Both the position numbers and the translations under genes were made by a program. Of a stretch of 36,655 nt of DNA, positions 6,788 to 20,104 are shown one piece after another (positions within the stretch are counted from its first letter, which is position 1; each line of letters starts with the position of its first letter). The notes beneath the pieces were generated by a model that saw nothing but the letters and a program-made list of their open reading frames with translations, was not told the DNA's origin and did no database searches. Source of the DNA: a virus; IMG/VR virus record IMGVR_UViG_3300008113_000491, positions 1-36,655 of that record. One strand, 5' to 3'.

Positions 6788-7357
6788 ATGACTCAGTGTG
6801 GCAAAGGATATATTTCGGCAGGTAAGCGCTGTCTCAAGAAGGAAGGTGACGGCATTAATTATGCTGGACATACCTTTCCTGGTTTTAACAAGCCAGTTAA
6901 GTCATGGCGACCAGGCAAGAAGCGAGCCGTACTGGTGAAGAAAGGTGATCGCGTCAAGGTTGTCCACTATGGCGCAACTGGATATCAGAACAACTACAGT
7001 GCCGAAGCCAAGAAAAGCTACTTAGCGCGATCGGCGGGAATTAAAAATAAATCTGGGCAGTCCACGGCGAACGATGTGTTCAGCCCAAACCATTGGGCAA
7101 GGAAAGATCTTTGGTCAAAGAGCCTGCCTGCGAATGGAAGTAATAAATATAAGGTGGACTCTATGGATGGGATGTGTGGATGCTCCGACTGCAAGAAGAA
7201 AGGCTTGAAGAAATCTCAGTGTGCTTGTGGTGGGCAGGACGAGAAGCCTAGTTATAAAAAGCCGTTGGCAAAGTCAAAACGGATTGACTCGACTAAGCCT
7301 GTTGAATATCAAGCCGCCTATTTGGAAGTAAAGAGACAGTATGCCAGACCTAGATAA
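6788..7357 (+). CDS. Small basic Cys-containing phage protein at the head of the plus-strand operon
   Basis: 189 residues, strongly basic. The N-terminus has C4-x10-C15 with GYISAG between the cysteines, a motif repeated at 25880 in this window. Residues about 35-115 (SWRPGKKRAVLVKKGDRVKVVHYGATGY ... SPNHWARKDLW) resemble a small conserved domain of phage head-region proteins, with its pattern of basic residues and closing W-x-R-x-x-LW. A Cys cluster near residues 129-147 (CGCSDCKKKG ... CACG) may bind zinc. The C-terminus carries VEYQAAYLEVKRQY, echoed at both ends of the next protein, which it overlaps by 17 bp. Function unknown; context suggests head assembly. Confidence 0.6.
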   Translation: MTQCGKGYISAGKRCLKKEGDGINYAGHTFPGFNKPVKSWRPGKKRAVLVKKGDRVKVVHYGATGYQNNYSAEAKKSYLARSAGIKNKSGQSTANDVFSPNHWARKDLWSKSLPANGSNKYKVDSMDGMCGCSDCKKKGLKKSQCACGGQDEKPSYKKPLAKSKRIDSTKPVEYQAAYLEVKRQYARPR

Positions 7358-9599
7358 GAACTACCTCGCGGGCCTATACCTAGACGAAATCACTCTTGAT
7401 GTTATGCCTCAAGAGTATATCGACGCAGCCCTTGAAGTGAAACTGCGCTACGACGCTTGTGCTCCAAGGGCGGGGTTTGTCTGCGTTCAGGATAGGCGAG
7501 TTAGAGGTGGTTTTTATTATCGAAAGGCTCCTCAAGGGCAGGGCGTAAATGCGCTACCTCCTTCTAAGCTGGAAAAAGCATTGGCGCGATCGCAGGAAGA
7601 ATCTCGCCCAAGATCTGAAATGGGTTTCTTGGGTAAAGCGGCGATCGGGGCAGGACTGGCGGTTGGTGGATTAGCATTGACTGGTGCAGTGATTAACGCT
7701 GGAAGGTCTAGTGAGCCATATCAAGAACCTGTCAGGCAAAGACCAACTTCTCCTGAGTCGAATAACGTAACAAATGTCGGACTGGGAGTTGGTGCTGCGG
7801 CGACTGTTGGGTTGGGGGTTGGTGCGGCGATCGCTAATAAGCCTGTTCAGCCCGTAAATACTGATATCAAGGAAGTGCAGCCTATTGTTGAGGAGAAGGA
7901 ATCTCAGCCACCAGTAAAATCACCTAAGAGTCAGCAACCAGAAATCAAAACGCCAGAGCAGGAAGAAGGGTACAAGATCGAGAAGGAGCTTATCGATTCA
8001 AAGTATATTTCTCAAAACAGGGGGTATGAATCGGCGCTATCAGCAAGTTTAAAGGAAAAACAGTATTCCCCAGAAGATATTCAAAGAAAGGTCTCTTCCC
8101 TTGACTTTGAAGGGGACGAAGGCTTTGTTCGGATTGAGGACGTAAAATCCCGAATCGGTGGTGGGCGCATTACAAAAGCTGGGCGAGATCGTCAGTCATT
8201 AGATATGCAGGCTCTTTACGACAAATTTAAGGACTATGGGCTTGAGGATGCGATCGAGTTTAGGGGTGCTACCAATAAGAAGGATGGCTCACCTCTTGGA
8301 TCTCCCAGCGCAAACAAATATTTAATCGATTTGCGTGACGGCAATCCACCTATCGCTGTTGGCGAAATGCGTTTTCGCAAAACTAGAGCAGAGGTTGAGG
8401 CGACGATCGCCGAGAAGCTCAAAAACCCTGAAGCTAAATCTCAGCCTCCACAAAAGTCAGCAAAGCCTCAAGCGCCAAAGTCAGACGTAGAAACTCCACA
8501 GCCAGAAAAAAATACAAGGCAGCAAAAGCGAACCTTGGTTGACGATCTGTCAGCAAAGCTCTCTCGAAACATATCTGAAGATGGTTTTGTCGCTCAGTCG
8601 GGATTAGTTAGCGAGCTAAGAAAGAAACCTCAGTACAAGAACACCGATATAGATCAAGAAATTGAAGACTTGGCAAAGAATAGTGGTGGGCGAATCCAAT
8701 TAGTTACCGACAAATACGGTAAGACGCTCGTAAGAGATTTAGATCAGGTAAAAACTTCTAAGCTTATCTCTGAAGCACAAAAACTGACCGATCCAGAAAG
8801 CGATCGCAAGAAATTGTTGGATGATGCTGTTGCCTACAAAGAAGCTAGAGCTACTAGCGAAGAGGAGAGGACTGGCGTTGCCGAGCTTAAAGCGGCGATC
8901 ACAGGTATCAAACCAAAAGAAGATACTCCAAAAAAAGGGCGTAGCAAGCCCCCCAAGGAAGAGGAACAAGTTACCTCCGAAGCACCTCCTGAAGTCACCA
9001 GCGATAAACCCCCTACTAGACCTAAAAGCAAAAAAGAGTTGGCACAAGAAGAGTCTGCGAGAATCTCCAAGGTTTTTGATGAGATTTCAAGTATAAAAGC
9101 CTCTTATGAGCTACAAAACACGAAGAAATTTTCTCAAGCAGATCAAGATGTCTTTGCTGAGAAAGCAACCCCAGAGCAGAAAACAAAACTATCAAACCTC
9201 ATCAGCAAGGAAATAGAGGTCTTAGGACTAGAAACTCCCGAAGGTAAGGGTTTGGCAAACCTTCATGAGGCGATGGTTGGCAAAAAGTATGTTAAGCCAG
9301 CATCCCAACAGTCAACCCCTGCGGCTAATACGGGTGAGCAGAATGCTACGCGATCGCAACCTACTACTATCGCCAACACTCCGAACCCTGAACGAGAAAA
9401 AGCCGCTAAACTAACTGTCGCAAAACTGAAAGAACTGCTTGATGCTAGGAACATAACTATTCCGAAAGGAGCTAAAAAAGACCAGCTACTAGATCTCCTT
9501 GTTCCTGAGAATAAAACCAATAACGACGCGATCGCGCCCTCAGAAGCCTACCTTGAAGCCTATTGGGAAACTCGCGACCAGCTTCGGAGGGTGGGCTAG
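7341..9599 (+). CDS. Large low-complexity protein with Gly/Ala hydrophobic segments and C-terminal SAP-like motif
   Basis: 752 residues. The N-terminus has EYIDAALEVKLRY and a Cys-containing stretch (FVCVQDRRVRGGFYYRKAP). Two Gly/Ala-rich hydrophobic segments follow (GKAAIGAGLAVGGLALTGAV, about residues 98-117, and GLGVGAAATVGLGVGAAIA, about 147-165). The middle is charged, with two alternating winged-helix-like pieces (EGFVRIEDVKSRIGGGRI and DGFVAQSGLVSELRKKP) between Lys/Pro/Gln-rich linkers. Near the C-terminus LTVAKLKELLDARNITIPKG resembles an SAP/HeH motif, usually DNA- or protein-binding. The architecture parallels the genes at 20101 and 21705. A structural or ejected virion protein is plausible; function is not known. 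Confidence 0.6.
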   Translation: MPDLDKNYLAGLYLDEITLDVMPQEYIDAALEVKLRYDACAPRAGFVCVQDRRVRGGFYYRKAPQGQGVNALPPSKLEKALARSQEESRPRSEMGFLGKAAIGAGLAVGGLALTGAVINAGRSSEPYQEPVRQRPTSPESNNVTNVGLGVGAAATVGLGVGAAIANKPVQPVNTDIKEVQPIVEEKESQPPVKSPKSQQPEIKTPEQEEGYKIEKELIDSKYISQNRGYESALSASLKEKQYSPEDIQRKVSSLDFEGDEGFVRIEDVKSRIGGGRITKAGRDRQSLDMQALYDKFKDYGLEDAIEFRGATNKKDGSPLGSPSANKYLIDLRDGNPPIAVGEMRFRKTRAEVEATIAEKLKNPEAKSQPPQKSAKPQAPKSDVETPQPEKNTRQQKRTLVDDLSAKLSRNISEDGFVAQSGLVSELRKKPQYKNTDIDQEIEDLAKNSGGRIQLVTDKYGKTLVRDLDQVKTSKLISEAQKLTDPESDRKKLLDDAVAYKEARATSEEERTGVAELKAAITGIKPKEDTPKKGRSKPPKEEEQVTSEAPPEVTSDKPPTRPKSKKELAQEESARISKVFDEISSIKASYELQNTKKFSQADQDVFAEKATPEQKTKLSNLISKEIEVLGLETPEGKGLANLHEAMVGKKYVKPASQQSTPAANTGEQNATRSQPTTIANTPNPEREKAAKLTVAKLKELLDARNITIPKGAKKDQLLDLLVPENKTNNDAIAPSEAYLEAYWETRDQLRRVG

Positions 9600-10306
9600 T
9601 GGCAACACCTGAGTACCTCAAGCTAAAACCTGTTGAAGCGATCGCTGCTTTACGCGATCGGTTAGCCATCCCGTTGTCCGATTACAAGGGACTGGATGCT
9701 CGTATTCACGACCACGCATTTATGGTATCTGGCTTAATGCGAGCTGACTTACTCGAAGCGACTAAGTGGTTAATCGGCAAAGCCCTTGAGGACGGCACAT
9801 CCTTTGAGCAGTTCACCCGCAGCTTTAATCGTCGCATTGGTCGCGCAGGATATCAGCCGAGTGGCCAGAGGATTAAGTTGATATTTGATACGAACATCAA
9901 CAAGTCTTATTGGCAGGGCAGGGAGAAGGTGATGCGGAGTCCTGAAATGCTGGCTAAGCGACCTTTATGGTTATGGCGGCATCGAGATTCCGTTGTACCA
10001 AGACCCACTCACAAGGCTTTGCATAATAAAGCCATCCCTGCCGATCACCCATTCTGGAAATCCATTTCTTTCCCCCTTGGATTTCAGTGTAAGTGTACCT
10101 GCATGAGTGTTACAGAAGATTACTGTAAACGCAACGGTATCGAAATCCTCTACAACCCGCCAGATCCTGATACTTTGATCGATAATCCTAGTTTTAAGCG
10201 TGGTACTGACACCAAGACTAGGGCGCAAATATTGGAACAAGGACTAAAGCGGTTGTCTCCAGATCTTCGCACCCAAGTTAAAAAGCAGATCAAAACTAAT
10301 GCCTGA
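9599..10306 (+). CDS. Phage head morphogenesis protein, MuF/SPP1 gp7 type
   Basis: 235 residues from a GTG at 9599. The start is chosen because GGAGG lies eight bases upstream and the GTG overlaps the preceding stop (TAGTG). The region from about residue 125 to 165 has the MuF signature: WRHRDSVVPRPTHKALHNK, then IPADHPFWKSISFPLGFQCK with a final CKCTC. MuF proteins bind the portal side of the procapsid and act in head maturation. Upstream helices (LRADLLEA ... TSFEQFTRSFNRRIG) are typical of the family. The next gene, the gpG type, overlaps by eight bases, the usual Mu-like order. Confidence 0.85.
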   Translation: MATPEYLKLKPVEAIAALRDRLAIPLSDYKGLDARIHDHAFMVSGLMRADLLEATKWLIGKALEDGTSFEQFTRSFNRRIGRAGYQPSGQRIKLIFDTNINKSYWQGREKVMRSPEMLAKRPLWLWRHRDSVVPRPTHKALHNKAIPADHPFWKSISFPLGFQCKCTCMSVTEDYCKRNGIEILYNPPDPDTLIDNPSFKRGTDTKTRAQILEQGLKRLSPDLRTQVKKQIKTNA

Positions 10307-16020: not shown

Positions 16021-16869
16021 ATGCAAAAAGTTTATCGCCAGTATTACACACAGGCTCTCGCTGGAATGGTTGAGGGCATGGGCGTAGGTTCCGTTGAAGC
16101 CTATCACAACGACAGTGGCTATGTTAAGGAAGTGTGGACGGTTACAACCCCCGCAACCCCTGTTACGGCTACCGTGTACACCATCACTCTTTACGATGAT
16201 GAAACTTCCTCCAGCCCAATCACCATTTCCTTTACTACTACTACAACTGTTCGTGCTGATCTAGCCACAGGTCTGTTTAATGCTTTCCGCGCCAACCTTC
16301 GTGCTAGCCAGCTTGCCTCGGTAGTAAACAACACCTCCACCTTGGTCTTCACGCACCGCAAAGACAACACTCCAATGTTCGTCACGATTGGCGGTGGTGG
16401 TGCAGCACCTTTGACCGTGCCTACCACTCCAACCACAGCGGCGGCAAGTCCATCTCGCAAGATTGCTGGTGCAGCCCCTCGCGTACCTGGAACCCTCAAC
16501 GGCGGCAGTATTCGCCTCCCCAATAGTGGTGACGCAATTACCGCTATTTGCGGTATTACCCGCCTCAACACTTCCGTTCAAAAGGATCAAGTTGGACCTG
16601 CGGCAACTACGGCTTATGAAGCTAACCAGTTAGCTGTTGACGTTCAACGCCGATTGGGTGATCTCTCTGGTATTTGGGTTCCTACCTTGGAAACCAGCAT
16701 TGCTGAGTCCGATACCGTGTTTATCTCTGTTGCTGCTGGTTCTAAGGGCTACGCCCAGAAGACCAATGCGAACAGCGCGATCGATGCTTCGACCCGCGCT
16801 AGTTTCCGCTCGGATGTTGTAACCGACATCAACAACAACAGGGTTGTCAAAGTTTACGCAAACTTCTAG
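16021..16869 (+). CDS. Capsid decoration / structural cement protein (putative)
   Basis: 282 residues, Thr/Ala/Val-rich and beta-rich, with VYTITLYDDETSSSPITISF, a Pro/Thr/Ala linker and a C-terminal part ending NNRVVKVYANF. It lies between the protease/scaffold gene and the major capsid gene, where Mu-like and related phages encode the decoration protein. AGGAG precedes the ATG by nine bases. The function comes from position and composition; the closest alternative is another head protein of the same operon. Confidence 0.65.
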   Translation: MQKVYRQYYTQALAGMVEGMGVGSVEAYHNDSGYVKEVWTVTTPATPVTATVYTITLYDDETSSSPITISFTTTTTVRADLATGLFNAFRANLRASQLASVVNNTSTLVFTHRKDNTPMFVTIGGGGAAPLTVPTTPTTAAASPSRKIAGAAPRVPGTLNGGSIRLPNSGDAITAICGITRLNTSVQKDQVGPAATTAYEANQLAVDVQRRLGDLSGIWVPTLETSIAESDTVFISVAAGSKGYAQKTNANSAIDASTRASFRSDVVTDINNNRVVKVYANF

Positions 16870-16879
16870 GAGGAGTTCA

Positions 16880-17791
16880 ATGACTACAGCTACTGAAATC
16901 AAAAATGATGACTGGTCAGTGGGCTACTTCAAGGAGCAGCTCGTTGAACTAGAACAGACCCTCGAAAAAGAAGAGTACGAACAGCTTTACTGGGCGAACG
17001 GTACTCTCATTCCTCGCGAAGACTGGAATAAACCCGAACTCGAAGAAACTGGCTATCGCAAGGTAACAGGTATCGGTCGGTGGGAAGCTGCTCGCGACTA
17101 CACCACCCACGTTCCCAACGTTGAGATCGTGTCGAGAGAATTCCGCCAAAGAGTTTCTGAGCATATCGGTGCTTACACTCTCAATGACAAAGAGATCGAG
17201 CTTTCCCAGAAGTTCGGTACTAGCATTGAAGCAGAAAAAGTCCAGATCGTGCTTGAAGCAGGTCAGCAATACCTCGACAAGATGGTATTCCTTGGTGACG
17301 GTCAACTGCGTGGCTTCTTCAACCACCCCGACACCCTGAAGTCCTACTCGGCATTCGCTTTCAACAGTTCTACTACTGTCGCTCAGATGCTCGCAGTGTT
17401 GAACGATACTGGCAACTCGATGCGTCGCTTGACTCGTAATATCGAGACTCCTGACACCATCTTGTTTGCCCAAGCAACTCACGACGAAATCAGCTTCCGT
17501 CGTCTCAGTGACTTCAACAGCGATTCTGTCCTCGACTACTACCTCAGCAAGGCAACTTACATCAAGGATGTAATGCCCTTACTCCCCCTCGAAGGTGTTG
17601 GTGATGGCGGTTCTAACGTTGCTTGCTATTACAAGCGCGACCCGAACAAAATCAAGTTCCGTATCACGGAGCCTTTCTCCTTCAAGAAGTGGATTGAGCT
17701 ACCTCGTGGTATGCAACGCACCGCTCGCATGAAATATGGTGGCTTGATTATCAAGCGTCCCTACTCCGTACTCTGGCTACACGGATTGTAA
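16880..17791 (+). CDS. Major capsid protein (DUF2184 family, HK97 fold)
   Basis: 303 residues. The ATG at 16880 is chosen because AGGAGG lies directly upstream; an upstream ATG at 16844 lies inside the previous gene. Sequence features fit DUF2184 capsid proteins: GIGRWEAARDYTTHVPNVEI, SEHIGAYTLNDKEIELSQ, the helix EAEKVQIVLEAGQQYLDKMV with FLGDGQLRGFFNHPD, and a C-terminal strand KYGGLIIKRPYSVLWLHGL. The N-terminal part (residues 1-45) is acidic and helical and may be a delta-like arm. Position after protease/scaffold and decoration genes agrees. A strong terminator hairpin follows. Confidence 0.88.
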   Translation: MTTATEIKNDDWSVGYFKEQLVELEQTLEKEEYEQLYWANGTLIPREDWNKPELEETGYRKVTGIGRWEAARDYTTHVPNVEIVSREFRQRVSEHIGAYTLNDKEIELSQKFGTSIEAEKVQIVLEAGQQYLDKMVFLGDGQLRGFFNHPDTLKSYSAFAFNSSTTVAQMLAVLNDTGNSMRRLTRNIETPDTILFAQATHDEISFRRLSDFNSDSVLDYYLSKATYIKDVMPLLPLEGVGDGGSNVACYYKRDPNKIKFRITEPFSFKKWIELPRGMQRTARMKYGGLIIKRPYSVLWLHGL

Positions 17792-17801
17792 AGCGATCGT
17801 C

Positions 17802-17838
17802 AATATCGAGCGTGGGAATACCTGCGCTCGATATTTTT
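17802..17838 (+). terminator. Intrinsic terminator after the capsid gene
   Basis: AATATCGAGCG (17802-17812) pairs perfectly with CGCTCGATATT (17825-17835), an 11-bp stem with a 12-nt loop, followed by further T to 17838. It is placed to raise the capsid-to-downstream transcript ratio by partial termination. Confidence 0.8.
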
Positions 17839-18928: not shown

Positions 18929-19348
18929 ATGGCAACATACCCCGTCGTTTCCGCAGATACTTTTACCTACGAGGCAGCATTCTCCGACTTTGTTGGGGAG
19001 TCGCCGATCTTTATGCAGAACTGGTTGAACTTCTATTCGCGGTTCTGTTCGATTGAGGAGTGGGGTGAGAATGCGGAGATGGCGGTAATGTTGTTGACCG
19101 CTCACTACCTTGCCTTGAACACCGAGGAAGGTACGGTGACGATTTCTAATGCTAAGGCGATTGATGCAGGTGAGTCTATGTCGAATCGGAGAACTTCCAC
19201 TCCCGCAAACGGTAATGGCAGATTCTCCGATGTATATCTATCTCGAACCACCTATGGACAGCAATTTTTGATGCTCAAGGAGTTAGTCCTAACAGGTGGT
19301 TTTATGGGTGACAGTATTCCTGCTGTGCCGCCATTTATTGCCTTCTGA
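18929..19348 (+). CDS. Head-tail adaptor type protein (DUF4054)
   Basis: 139 residues. TYEAAFSDFVGESPIFMQ, SIEEWGENAEMAVMLLTAHYL and a closing TYGQQFLMLKELVLTGGFMG give the pattern of DUF4054 proteins, small helical head-completion or adaptor proteins found next to DUF2184 capsid genes. It starts 4 bp after the previous gene. The order capsid, unknown, unknown, DUF4054 fits the head-tail junction module. Confidence 0.75.
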   Translation: MATYPVVSADTFTYEAAFSDFVGESPIFMQNWLNFYSRFCSIEEWGENAEMAVMLLTAHYLALNTEEGTVTISNAKAIDAGESMSNRRTSTPANGNGRFSDVYLSRTTYGQQFLMLKELVLTGGFMGDSIPAVPPFIAF

Positions 19349-19370
19349 GTTATTATTTAAAGAGGACACA

Positions 19371-19619
19371 ATGACATTCTCCGAAGCTTTGGAAGCTATT
19401 AAATCGGGTGGCAAGGTTGCCAGAACGGGTTGGAACGGCAAAGGTATCTTTATTCAGATTCAGCGTCCCGATGCACACTCAAAAATGACCCACCCGTATA
19501 TCTATATCGACACTACTGGTTTACAATCCGACAATCTGGATGCTCCAAGAAGTTTAGTACCTTGGCTTGCCTCCCAAACAGATCTTTTGTCCGACGACTG
19601 GATGGTTGTATCTCCTTAA
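19371..19619 (+). CDS. DUF2829 / Tad2-type protein (Thoeris anti-defence family)
   Basis: 82 residues. MTFSEALEAIKSGGKVARTG with WNGKGIFIQIQ, a central PYIYI strand and the closing LVPWLASQTDLLSDDWMVV match the DUF2829 family along the whole length. The family includes Tad2, a phage protein that sequesters the gcADPR signal of Thoeris defence; binding of cyclic dinucleotides has also been reported for Tad2 homologues. The ATG at 19371 has AGAGGA about five bases upstream. It sits inside the head-completion operon 22 bp after DUF4054, unusual for an accessory gene. The family call is solid; anti-defence activity of this copy is inference. Confidence 0.85.
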   Translation: MTFSEALEAIKSGGKVARTGWNGKGIFIQIQRPDAHSKMTHPYIYIDTTGLQSDNLDAPRSLVPWLASQTDLLSDDWMVVSP

Positions 19620-19654
19620 TTTAGCCCTATGTACCATGCGTACAAAAGGATCTT

Positions 19655-19689
19655 ACAAGCGATCGCTAAATCAACCAGCGATCGCTTGT
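19655..19689 (+). terminator. Strong hairpin of two inverted HIP1 sites, terminator-like
   Basis: ACAAGCGATCGCT (19655-19667) pairs perfectly with AGCGATCGCTTGT (19677-19689), a 13-bp stem with a 9-nt loop. The downstream T-tract is weak (TTGCTT). It fills the only sizeable gap (98 bp) between the Tad2-like gene and the next gene. Confidence 0.5.
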
Positions 19690-19717
19690 TTGCTTATGAG
19701 CATCAAACAATAGCAGT

Positions 19718-20104
19718 ATGTCTCTAGCCAACAAACTTATTACTAAACTTCAAGGACTGCGCGATCGTCGAGCAGGAGATGCGATCGGTGCGCCTAACGT
19801 GCTGCCATTAACAGTGGTGACTCGCACTGCGTCGGGCGAAACAAGGCTAGAGATATTGCCTCACCCCACGATTCTACGAGTTAACCCTCGTACCGTCGCC
19901 TTGTTTGAAAGCACTAATATCAAGGTTGGTATTGACGACTATCAGGTGAGTGGTATATCTGCGGCATACACCGAGGCTCAGCTTACGGGCAAGGGAAAGT
20001 ATTACATCGTTGACAACTCGATTAAGTGTAACGAAGTAATGGGGACTATCGAAAATAAGAGTTTTAGCTGGGAAATTATTTTAACGAGGATACCAAATCG
20101 ATGA
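19718..20104 (+). CDS. Unknown head-tail region protein
   Basis: 128 residues, mostly beta: LPLTVVTRTASGETRLEILP, TVALFESTNIKVGIDDYQV, GKYYIVDNSIKCNEVMGTI, SFSWEIILTRIPNR. The size and fold impression would suit a neck or tail-terminator protein, but I do not recognise a family. It overlaps the next gene by four bases (ATGA). No Shine-Dalgarno is clear. Confidence 0.6.
   Translation: MSLANKLITKLQGLRDRRAGDAIGAPNVLPLTVVTRTASGETRLEILPHPTILRVNPRTVALFESTNIKVGIDDYQVSGISAAYTEAQLTGKGKYYIVDNSIKCNEVMGTIENKSFSWEIILTRIPNR

Follow-up and report, generated by a model that had tools for sequence, protein, structure and literature searches.

A Tad2-like protein with remodelled pocket loops, encoded in a variable slot of a putative cyanophage head operon, is a candidate sponge for a TIR-derived signal

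An 82-residue protein encoded among the head genes of an apparent tailed cyanophage is best read, from the analyses brought together here, as probably a sponge for an ADP-ribose signal made by TIR-domain enzymes. By sequence it belongs to a widespread branch of the Tad2 family, new here, in which the connector between beta2 and beta3 is short and the beta3-beta4 loop is long and near-invariant.

The gene lies in an IMG/VR virus contig (IMGVR_UViG_3300008113_000491), the 36,655 nucleotides of which are referred to as the window. The HIP1 site GCGATCGC occurs 55 times in the window against an expectation of 0.52, and the best relatives of the capsid protein are those of Aphanizomenon phage CL131 and Planktothrix phage PaV-LD. 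Because of these two observations the host is very probably a cyanobacterium, in agreement with the preliminary description of this DNA, which had called it a cyanophage. Further upstream in the window (6788-10306), two separate ORFs, at 6788-7357 and 9563-10306 (Phage_Mu_F), each carry part of a homology to phrog_220 (minor head protein/DNA pilot), and between the two halves there is a 752-aa ORF in another frame (7341-9599) with a C-terminal HeH/LEM domain. A contig near-identical to the window (L275) contains two pairs of ORFs, at L275:1189-2768 and L275:17877-19514, that resemble IS200/IS605 TnpA and TnpB by eye. The features surrounding the Tad2-like gene, termed tad2 below, are collected in Table 1.

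Table 1. Features of tad2 and its neighbourhood in the window, with predicted elements of the encoded protein
Feature	Position	Strand	Basis or remark
Major capsid protein	16844..17791	+	PF09950; phrog_264; candidate Thoeris trigger by analogy
DUF4054 / virion structural protein	18929..19348	+	DUF4054 E=3.5e-7; phrog_302 4e-12; upstream slot border
Variable cargo slot, flanked by DUF4054 and the head-operon gene that follows	19349..19717	.	Comparison with L026, CL131 and PaV-LD
Shine-Dalgarno sequence AAGAGGA	19360-19366	+	Start codon 19371; read directly
Tad2-like CDS, 82 aa	19371..19619	+	Subfamily motif SKMTxPYI...T..L.(T/S).N..AP
Beta1-beta2 loop, residues 20-26 GWNGKGI	19428..19448	+	Predicted signal-pocket element; topology from PMC12043709
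Extended beta3-beta4 loop, residues 48-61 TTGLQSDNLDAPRS	19512..19553	+	17 residues between D47 and W65 vs 8-9 in solved Tad2
Beta4-alpha3 element, residues 64-73 PWLASQTDLL	19560..19589	+	Predicted signal-pocket element
Hairpin with a perfect 13-bp stem, built from two inverted HIP1 sites	19655..19689	+	Downstream of tad2; z=-4.4
Conserved gene, weakly neck-like	19718..20104	+	Downstream slot border; 91% identical in L026

Translation of the ORF at 19371-19619 gives MTFSEALEAIKSGGKVARTGWNGKGIFIQIQRPDAHSKMTHPYIYIDTTGLQSDNLDAPRSLVPWLASQTDLLSDDWMVVSP. The whole of this protein is covered by the family PF11195, 'Tad2-like' (profile positions 1-73 of 73, E=1.5e-23), with a score of 83.5 bits against a curated cut-off of 25 bits. 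Judged on sequence, the match is far beyond chance, and the DUF2829/Tad2 pattern that had been described as complete is indeed so. A phmmer search of the PDB returned Tad2/AcrIIA7 chains only (8kbi, 9e-13; 8wjd, 4e-12; 9kzr; SPO1 Tad2, 8sme, 9e-11; 8v3e; 9eib), and an NCBIfam search with the 82-aa protein gave no match. The gene starts 22 nt past the DUF4054 stop codon and has a good Shine-Dalgarno sequence of its own, again as first described. No promoter of its own was found upstream of tad2 by a consensus scan; the one promoter-like match, at 19507-19535, falls inside tad2, and such matches are rarer than in shuffled sequences. The spacing of the genes suggests that tad2 is read together with the head genes. 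Just past the major capsid gene, upstream of both DUF4054 and tad2, there is a strong terminator-like hairpin (17802-17835; 15 pairs, T-rich tail), which may lower transcription into tad2.

A homolog from another locus (L003) shares 76% amino-acid identity with the window protein; the two genes are 81% and 86% identical at codon positions 1 and 2, and 35% identical at position 3. Among pairs of close Tad2 homologs, dN is 0.02-0.07 and dS is 0.5-0.9, with dN/dS ratios of approximately 0.02-0.11. This low dN relative to dS, together with the divergence being greatest at position 3, argues that 19371-19619 is protein-coding and that strong purifying selection acts on the family. An identical copy of tad2 is present on the near-identical contig 3300005805_000129 and, as this is the sole near relative, dN/dS has no value within the window's own lineage.

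An AlphaFold2 model of the monomer, built from an alignment of 80 homologs taken from the fetched loci, has a pLDDT of 94.1 and displays the Tad2 order of elements: alpha1 (residues 3-11), beta1 (15-18), beta2 (27-31), beta3 (43-47), beta4 (62-64), a further alpha helix (69-73) and beta5 (77-80). A structural comparison at the level of the monomer bore out the assignment. All 24 Foldseek matches in the PDB at E<=0.001 are Tad2/AcrIIA7 structures, with SPO1 Tad2 first (E about 1e-6), and they include SPO1 Tad2 with gcADPR (8smf/8smg), ModTad2 with His-ADPR (9eib) and HgmTad2 with cADPR (8kbj). Matches in a viral library are mostly Tad2-like/DUF2829 proteins, several matches being unnamed. The predicted fold of the 82-aa protein is that of a Tad2 monomer.

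According to a review (PMC12043709), one protomer contributes its beta1-beta2 loop, beta3-beta4 loop and beta4 to the gcADPR pocket, and another contributes its beta1-beta2 loop, beta4-alpha3 loop and alpha3. Twelve columns are invariant among 80 diverse homologs (R18, G20, W21, G23, P64, W65, S68, Q69, T70, D71, D76 and W77), and nine of the twelve (G20, W21, G23, P64, W65, S68, Q69, T70 and D71) fall within the pocket elements named in that review. Taken element by element rather than atom by atom, the core pocket motifs can be regarded as intact.

Outside these motifs the protein departs from the Tad2 proteins of known structure. In a FastTree tree it falls within a clade of 86 sequences with a local support of 0.988, in a tree where HgmTad2 is partly masked, the clade was partly gathered via its own motif search and short sequences weaken support. 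The clade excludes SPO1, Hgm, Spt and Mo Tad2, that is, all four solved Tad2 types, and no solved structure was found for any of its members. In 78 of the 86 sequences the connector between beta2 and beta3 is 11 residues long and 17 residues lie between D47 and W65; in solved Tad2 the connector has 24-42 residues and the beta3-beta4 loop 8-9, and outside the clade a loop of 8 or 9 residues is found in 50/64. Among the long-loop members of the clade (n=81), conservation is close to complete at T48 (99%), L51 (99%), T/S53 (100%), N55 (99%), A58 (99%), P59 (95%) and V63 (96%). The 17-residue loop of the window protein, while unlike the 8-9 residues of solved Tad2, is typical of its own PF11195 clade, loop length at this position being a variable and not a defining feature of the Tad2 family.

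SPO1 Tad2 (Gp34.65; 8sme/8smf/8smg/8wje) resembles the window protein in its fold, in the GWNGK, W..SQTD and DW motifs and in having no long cyclic-dinucleotide insertion. It differs in the beta2-beta3 connector (24 vs 11 residues) and the beta3-beta4 loop (8 vs 17), as well as in the near-invariant T..L.(T/S).N..AP...V that distinguishes the window loop. HgmTad2/AcrIIA7 (8kbi-8kbm, 9kzr) and SptTad2 (8wjd) are the best sequence matches and share the fold and the WLASQTD motif; however, their 35-42-residue beta2-beta3 stretch is missing in the window protein, whose beta3-beta4 loop is longer. The Tad2 of a Myroides odoratus prophage (MoTad2; 8v3e, 9eib) has the same fold and GWNGKG, but SVSD in place of the window protein's SQTD, and 29-33% identity in Foldseek alignments. 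A homolog in phage CBW1004C-Prop1 (MZ188970) is 64% identical and carries the subfamily motif, although its gene lies outside the head operon, between lysis protein and terminase genes, and HIP1 sites are absent.

It had been stated beforehand that Tad2 sequesters gcADPR. This holds for SPO1 Tad2 but not as a general rule, as MoTad2 binds His-ADPR (PMC13299392) and other members of the family bind cyclic dinucleotides as well (PMC12043709). Since family members bind other signals and the pocket loops differ here, gcADPR cannot be assumed as the ligand. A gcADPR/cADPR isomer serves as a first guess that may equally well be right or wrong and, given the remodelled beta3-beta4 loop, His-ADPR or another TIR product is possible. 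The window protein shares the SQTD motif with SPO1 Tad2, HgmTad2 and SptTad2; MoTad2, which binds His-ADPR, has SVSD at that position. The likeness to the cADPR binders offers a hint as to the ligand, a single SVSD sequence having been compared. As the beta3-beta4 loop differs from that of every solved Tad2 in both length and sequence, affinity for gcADPR may be altered or lost. A more speculative and rather doubtful suggestion is that the remodelled connector and beta3-beta4 loop form a lid over the pocket, tuned to a TIR product unlike those of characterised Tad2, in which case phages with an additional canonical Tad2 would cover two Thoeris signals.

The site occupied by tad2 differs among related phages. 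In contig 3300046328_001165 (L026), the capsid protein of which is 91% identical, the DNA is co-linear with the window as far as DUF4054 extends, and becomes so again with the gene beyond the slot. The slot itself (L026:8479-9202, 0.7 kb) has no tad2; in its place are a strong terminator-like hairpin and a 94-aa ORF in convergent orientation (8569-8853, minus strand). A Pfam search with this ORF gave no match, and a search of all 92,683 bases of the L026 record found no Tad2. In CL131 the genes flanking the slot overlap by 4 nt, and in PaV-LD the slot contains a 61-aa ORF. Since L026 has the same operon without tad2 and the flanking genes overlap in CL131, tad2 appears to be dispensable in this lineage, and is to be seen as optional cargo in a variable slot rather than an essential head gene.

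The preliminary description had placed tad2 between DUF4054 and a neck-like gene. The former identification stands, but a neck identity for the gene at 19718-20104 is weakly supported, its model being too poor (AlphaFold pLDDT 39) and its sole PDB profile match, to 'Neck gp7' (8kef), weak (E=0.15). The hairpin reported to follow tad2 was found, with a perfect stem; as a terminator it was discarded, as it has no U-run, does not appear in the list from a terminator scan and is not canonical. A HIP1-related imperfect hairpin precedes the counterpart of gene 19718 in L026.

A profile search of IMG/VR matched more than 560 loci, a number that is a lower bound. Relatives 55-76% identical to the window protein come from contigs whose taxonomic assignments include Bacillota, Bacteroidota, Pseudomonadota, Actinomycetota and Omnitrophota. 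Because the contigs of the nearest class members show no HIP1 enrichment, phages infecting distant hosts have probably exchanged the gene. Its patchy presence, with no copy in L026 and similar Tad2 in many phyla, is in keeping with a mobile counter-defence gene. A window-type and a canonical Tad2 occur together, approximately 8.5 kb apart, in two Paenibacillus-type records (L031/G005 and L114/G015), the canonical copies of the two being identical and the records possibly representing one prophage seen twice. Such co-carriage fits non-redundant roles.

Placement was assessed in IMG/VR records with a detectable terminase (phrog_2), against a crude null of uniform placement and with records that are partly dependent (L172 and L173 are near-duplicates). 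Window-type Tad2 (n=22, short-loop neighbours included) lies within 7 kb of the terminase in 15/22 records, 14 of them on the same strand (9.2 expected, P=0.006), and within 3 kb in 11/22 (4.8 expected, P=0.003). For a canonical subfamily the figures are 12/21 within 7 kb (7.6 expected, P=0.03) and 9/21 within 3 kb (3.9 expected, P=0.007). Placement of Tad2 near packaging genes is common. The enrichment is not specific to the window's subfamily, the canonical one being enriched also (15/22 vs 12/21 within 7 kb), and a difference in the side on which the terminase tends to lie, upstream in the former and downstream in the latter, is only suggestive. Among the proteins encoded beside window-type Tad2 there are frequent matches to portal, terminase, scaffold and head proteins, as well as to others. 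Not every homolog is so placed: some adjoin genes for ribonucleotide reductase, a DNA polymerase subunit or NAD salvage, and those of Acinetobacter phage XC38 and Pseudomonas phage PaBG are located in DNA-metabolism regions. In Aeromonas phage Ahp1 (L308:2983-4911), an SKMT-type Tad2 gene is followed, after 114 nt, by a gene for nicotinamide phosphoribosyltransferase (NAD salvage); the two are a possible joint answer to NAD depletion. A general link between Tad2 and NAD-salvage genes was discarded, nicotinamide phosphoribosyltransferase being present in only 1/36 records.

Several roles other than that of an ADP-ribose sponge have to be weighed. HgmTad2 and SptTad2, the best sequence matches in the PDB, bind cGG (8kbk, 8wjd), and the window protein might likewise be a sponge for cyclic dinucleotides, directed against CBASS. 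Binding of these ligands has, however, been placed in the long insertion after beta2 (review, PMC12043709), and where HgmTad2 and SptTad2 have 42 and 35 residues between beta2 and beta3, the window protein has 11. SPO1 Tad2, with 24 residues at this point, does not bind 3'3'-cGAMP (PMC11722364), and the window protein is shorter still. Because the insertion is missing, cyclic-dinucleotide binding is very unlikely. Names in the databases point instead to an anti-CRISPR of the AcrIIA7 type: PDB entry 8kbi is called 'Inhibitor of Type II CRISPR-Cas system' / AcrIIA7, and 'anti-CRISPR protein' is the annotation given to homologs from phages of Escherichia and Klebsiella. Yet the AcrIIA7/HgmTad2 protein has itself been solved with cADPR and cGG as ligands, and the chance that the window protein acts on CRISPR appears very slim.

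The location of tad2, next to DUF4054 and a conserved, weakly neck-like gene, might instead indicate a virion or assembly protein, and there is a weak Foldseek likeness to the phage 812 neck chain 8qkh_S (E=0.07, TM 0.51). Such a role is quite improbable, however, as L026 has the same capsid operon with no Tad2 anywhere in its 92.7-kb record, CL131 leaves no gap at the slot, and homologs in other phages adjoin the reductase, polymerase and NAD-salvage genes mentioned above. The variable slot and the optional presence of tad2 would also suit a passenger gene that at present serves no function in the phage, and the identical copy in the only near relative provides no dN/dS for the lineage. This explanation is improbable in view of the intact ORF, the good Shine-Dalgarno sequence, the retention of all invariant family residues and the strong purifying selection on homologs.

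The preferred reading, that of a sponge for an ADP-ribose signal, leads to the following proposal. As an accessory counter-defence gene in the variable head-operon slot of a tailed cyanophage, tad2 would encode a protein that, by analogy with SPO1 Tad2, assembles as a tetramer and binds, without cutting it, a small ADP-ribose-derived alarm molecule from a host TIR-domain enzyme of a Thoeris-like system. With this signal soaked up, the NAD-destroying effector would not be switched on. Read with the head genes, the sponge would appear as the capsid protein, a known Thoeris trigger, accumulates. For the window Tad2 itself we infer the tetramer, the ligand, the anti-Thoeris effect, the co-transcription and the timing. 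Thoeris genes have been reported among Synechococcus sequences, but Thoeris is absent from the listed complete systems (PMC10696648).

The late, head-operon placement of tad2 had earlier been considered odd and a hint of some other role. Against this view are the frequent occurrence of Tad2 near the terminase, the optional nature of the slot in L026 and CL131, and the activation of staphylococcal and streptococcal Thoeris by the phage major capsid protein (PMC12578639). Since the capsid protein triggers these two Thoeris systems, a sponge produced alongside the head would not come at the wrong time, provided that the host system is alike.

A cyanophage head operon may now be considered within reach of the anti-Thoeris sponge family, and capsid-triggered Thoeris gives a concrete reason for reading such a gene with the head genes. 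The large Tad2 branch with remodelled loops, for which no solved representative was found, has a ligand that is directly testable; if this ligand differs from gcADPR, it would reveal the TIR signal faced by these phages.
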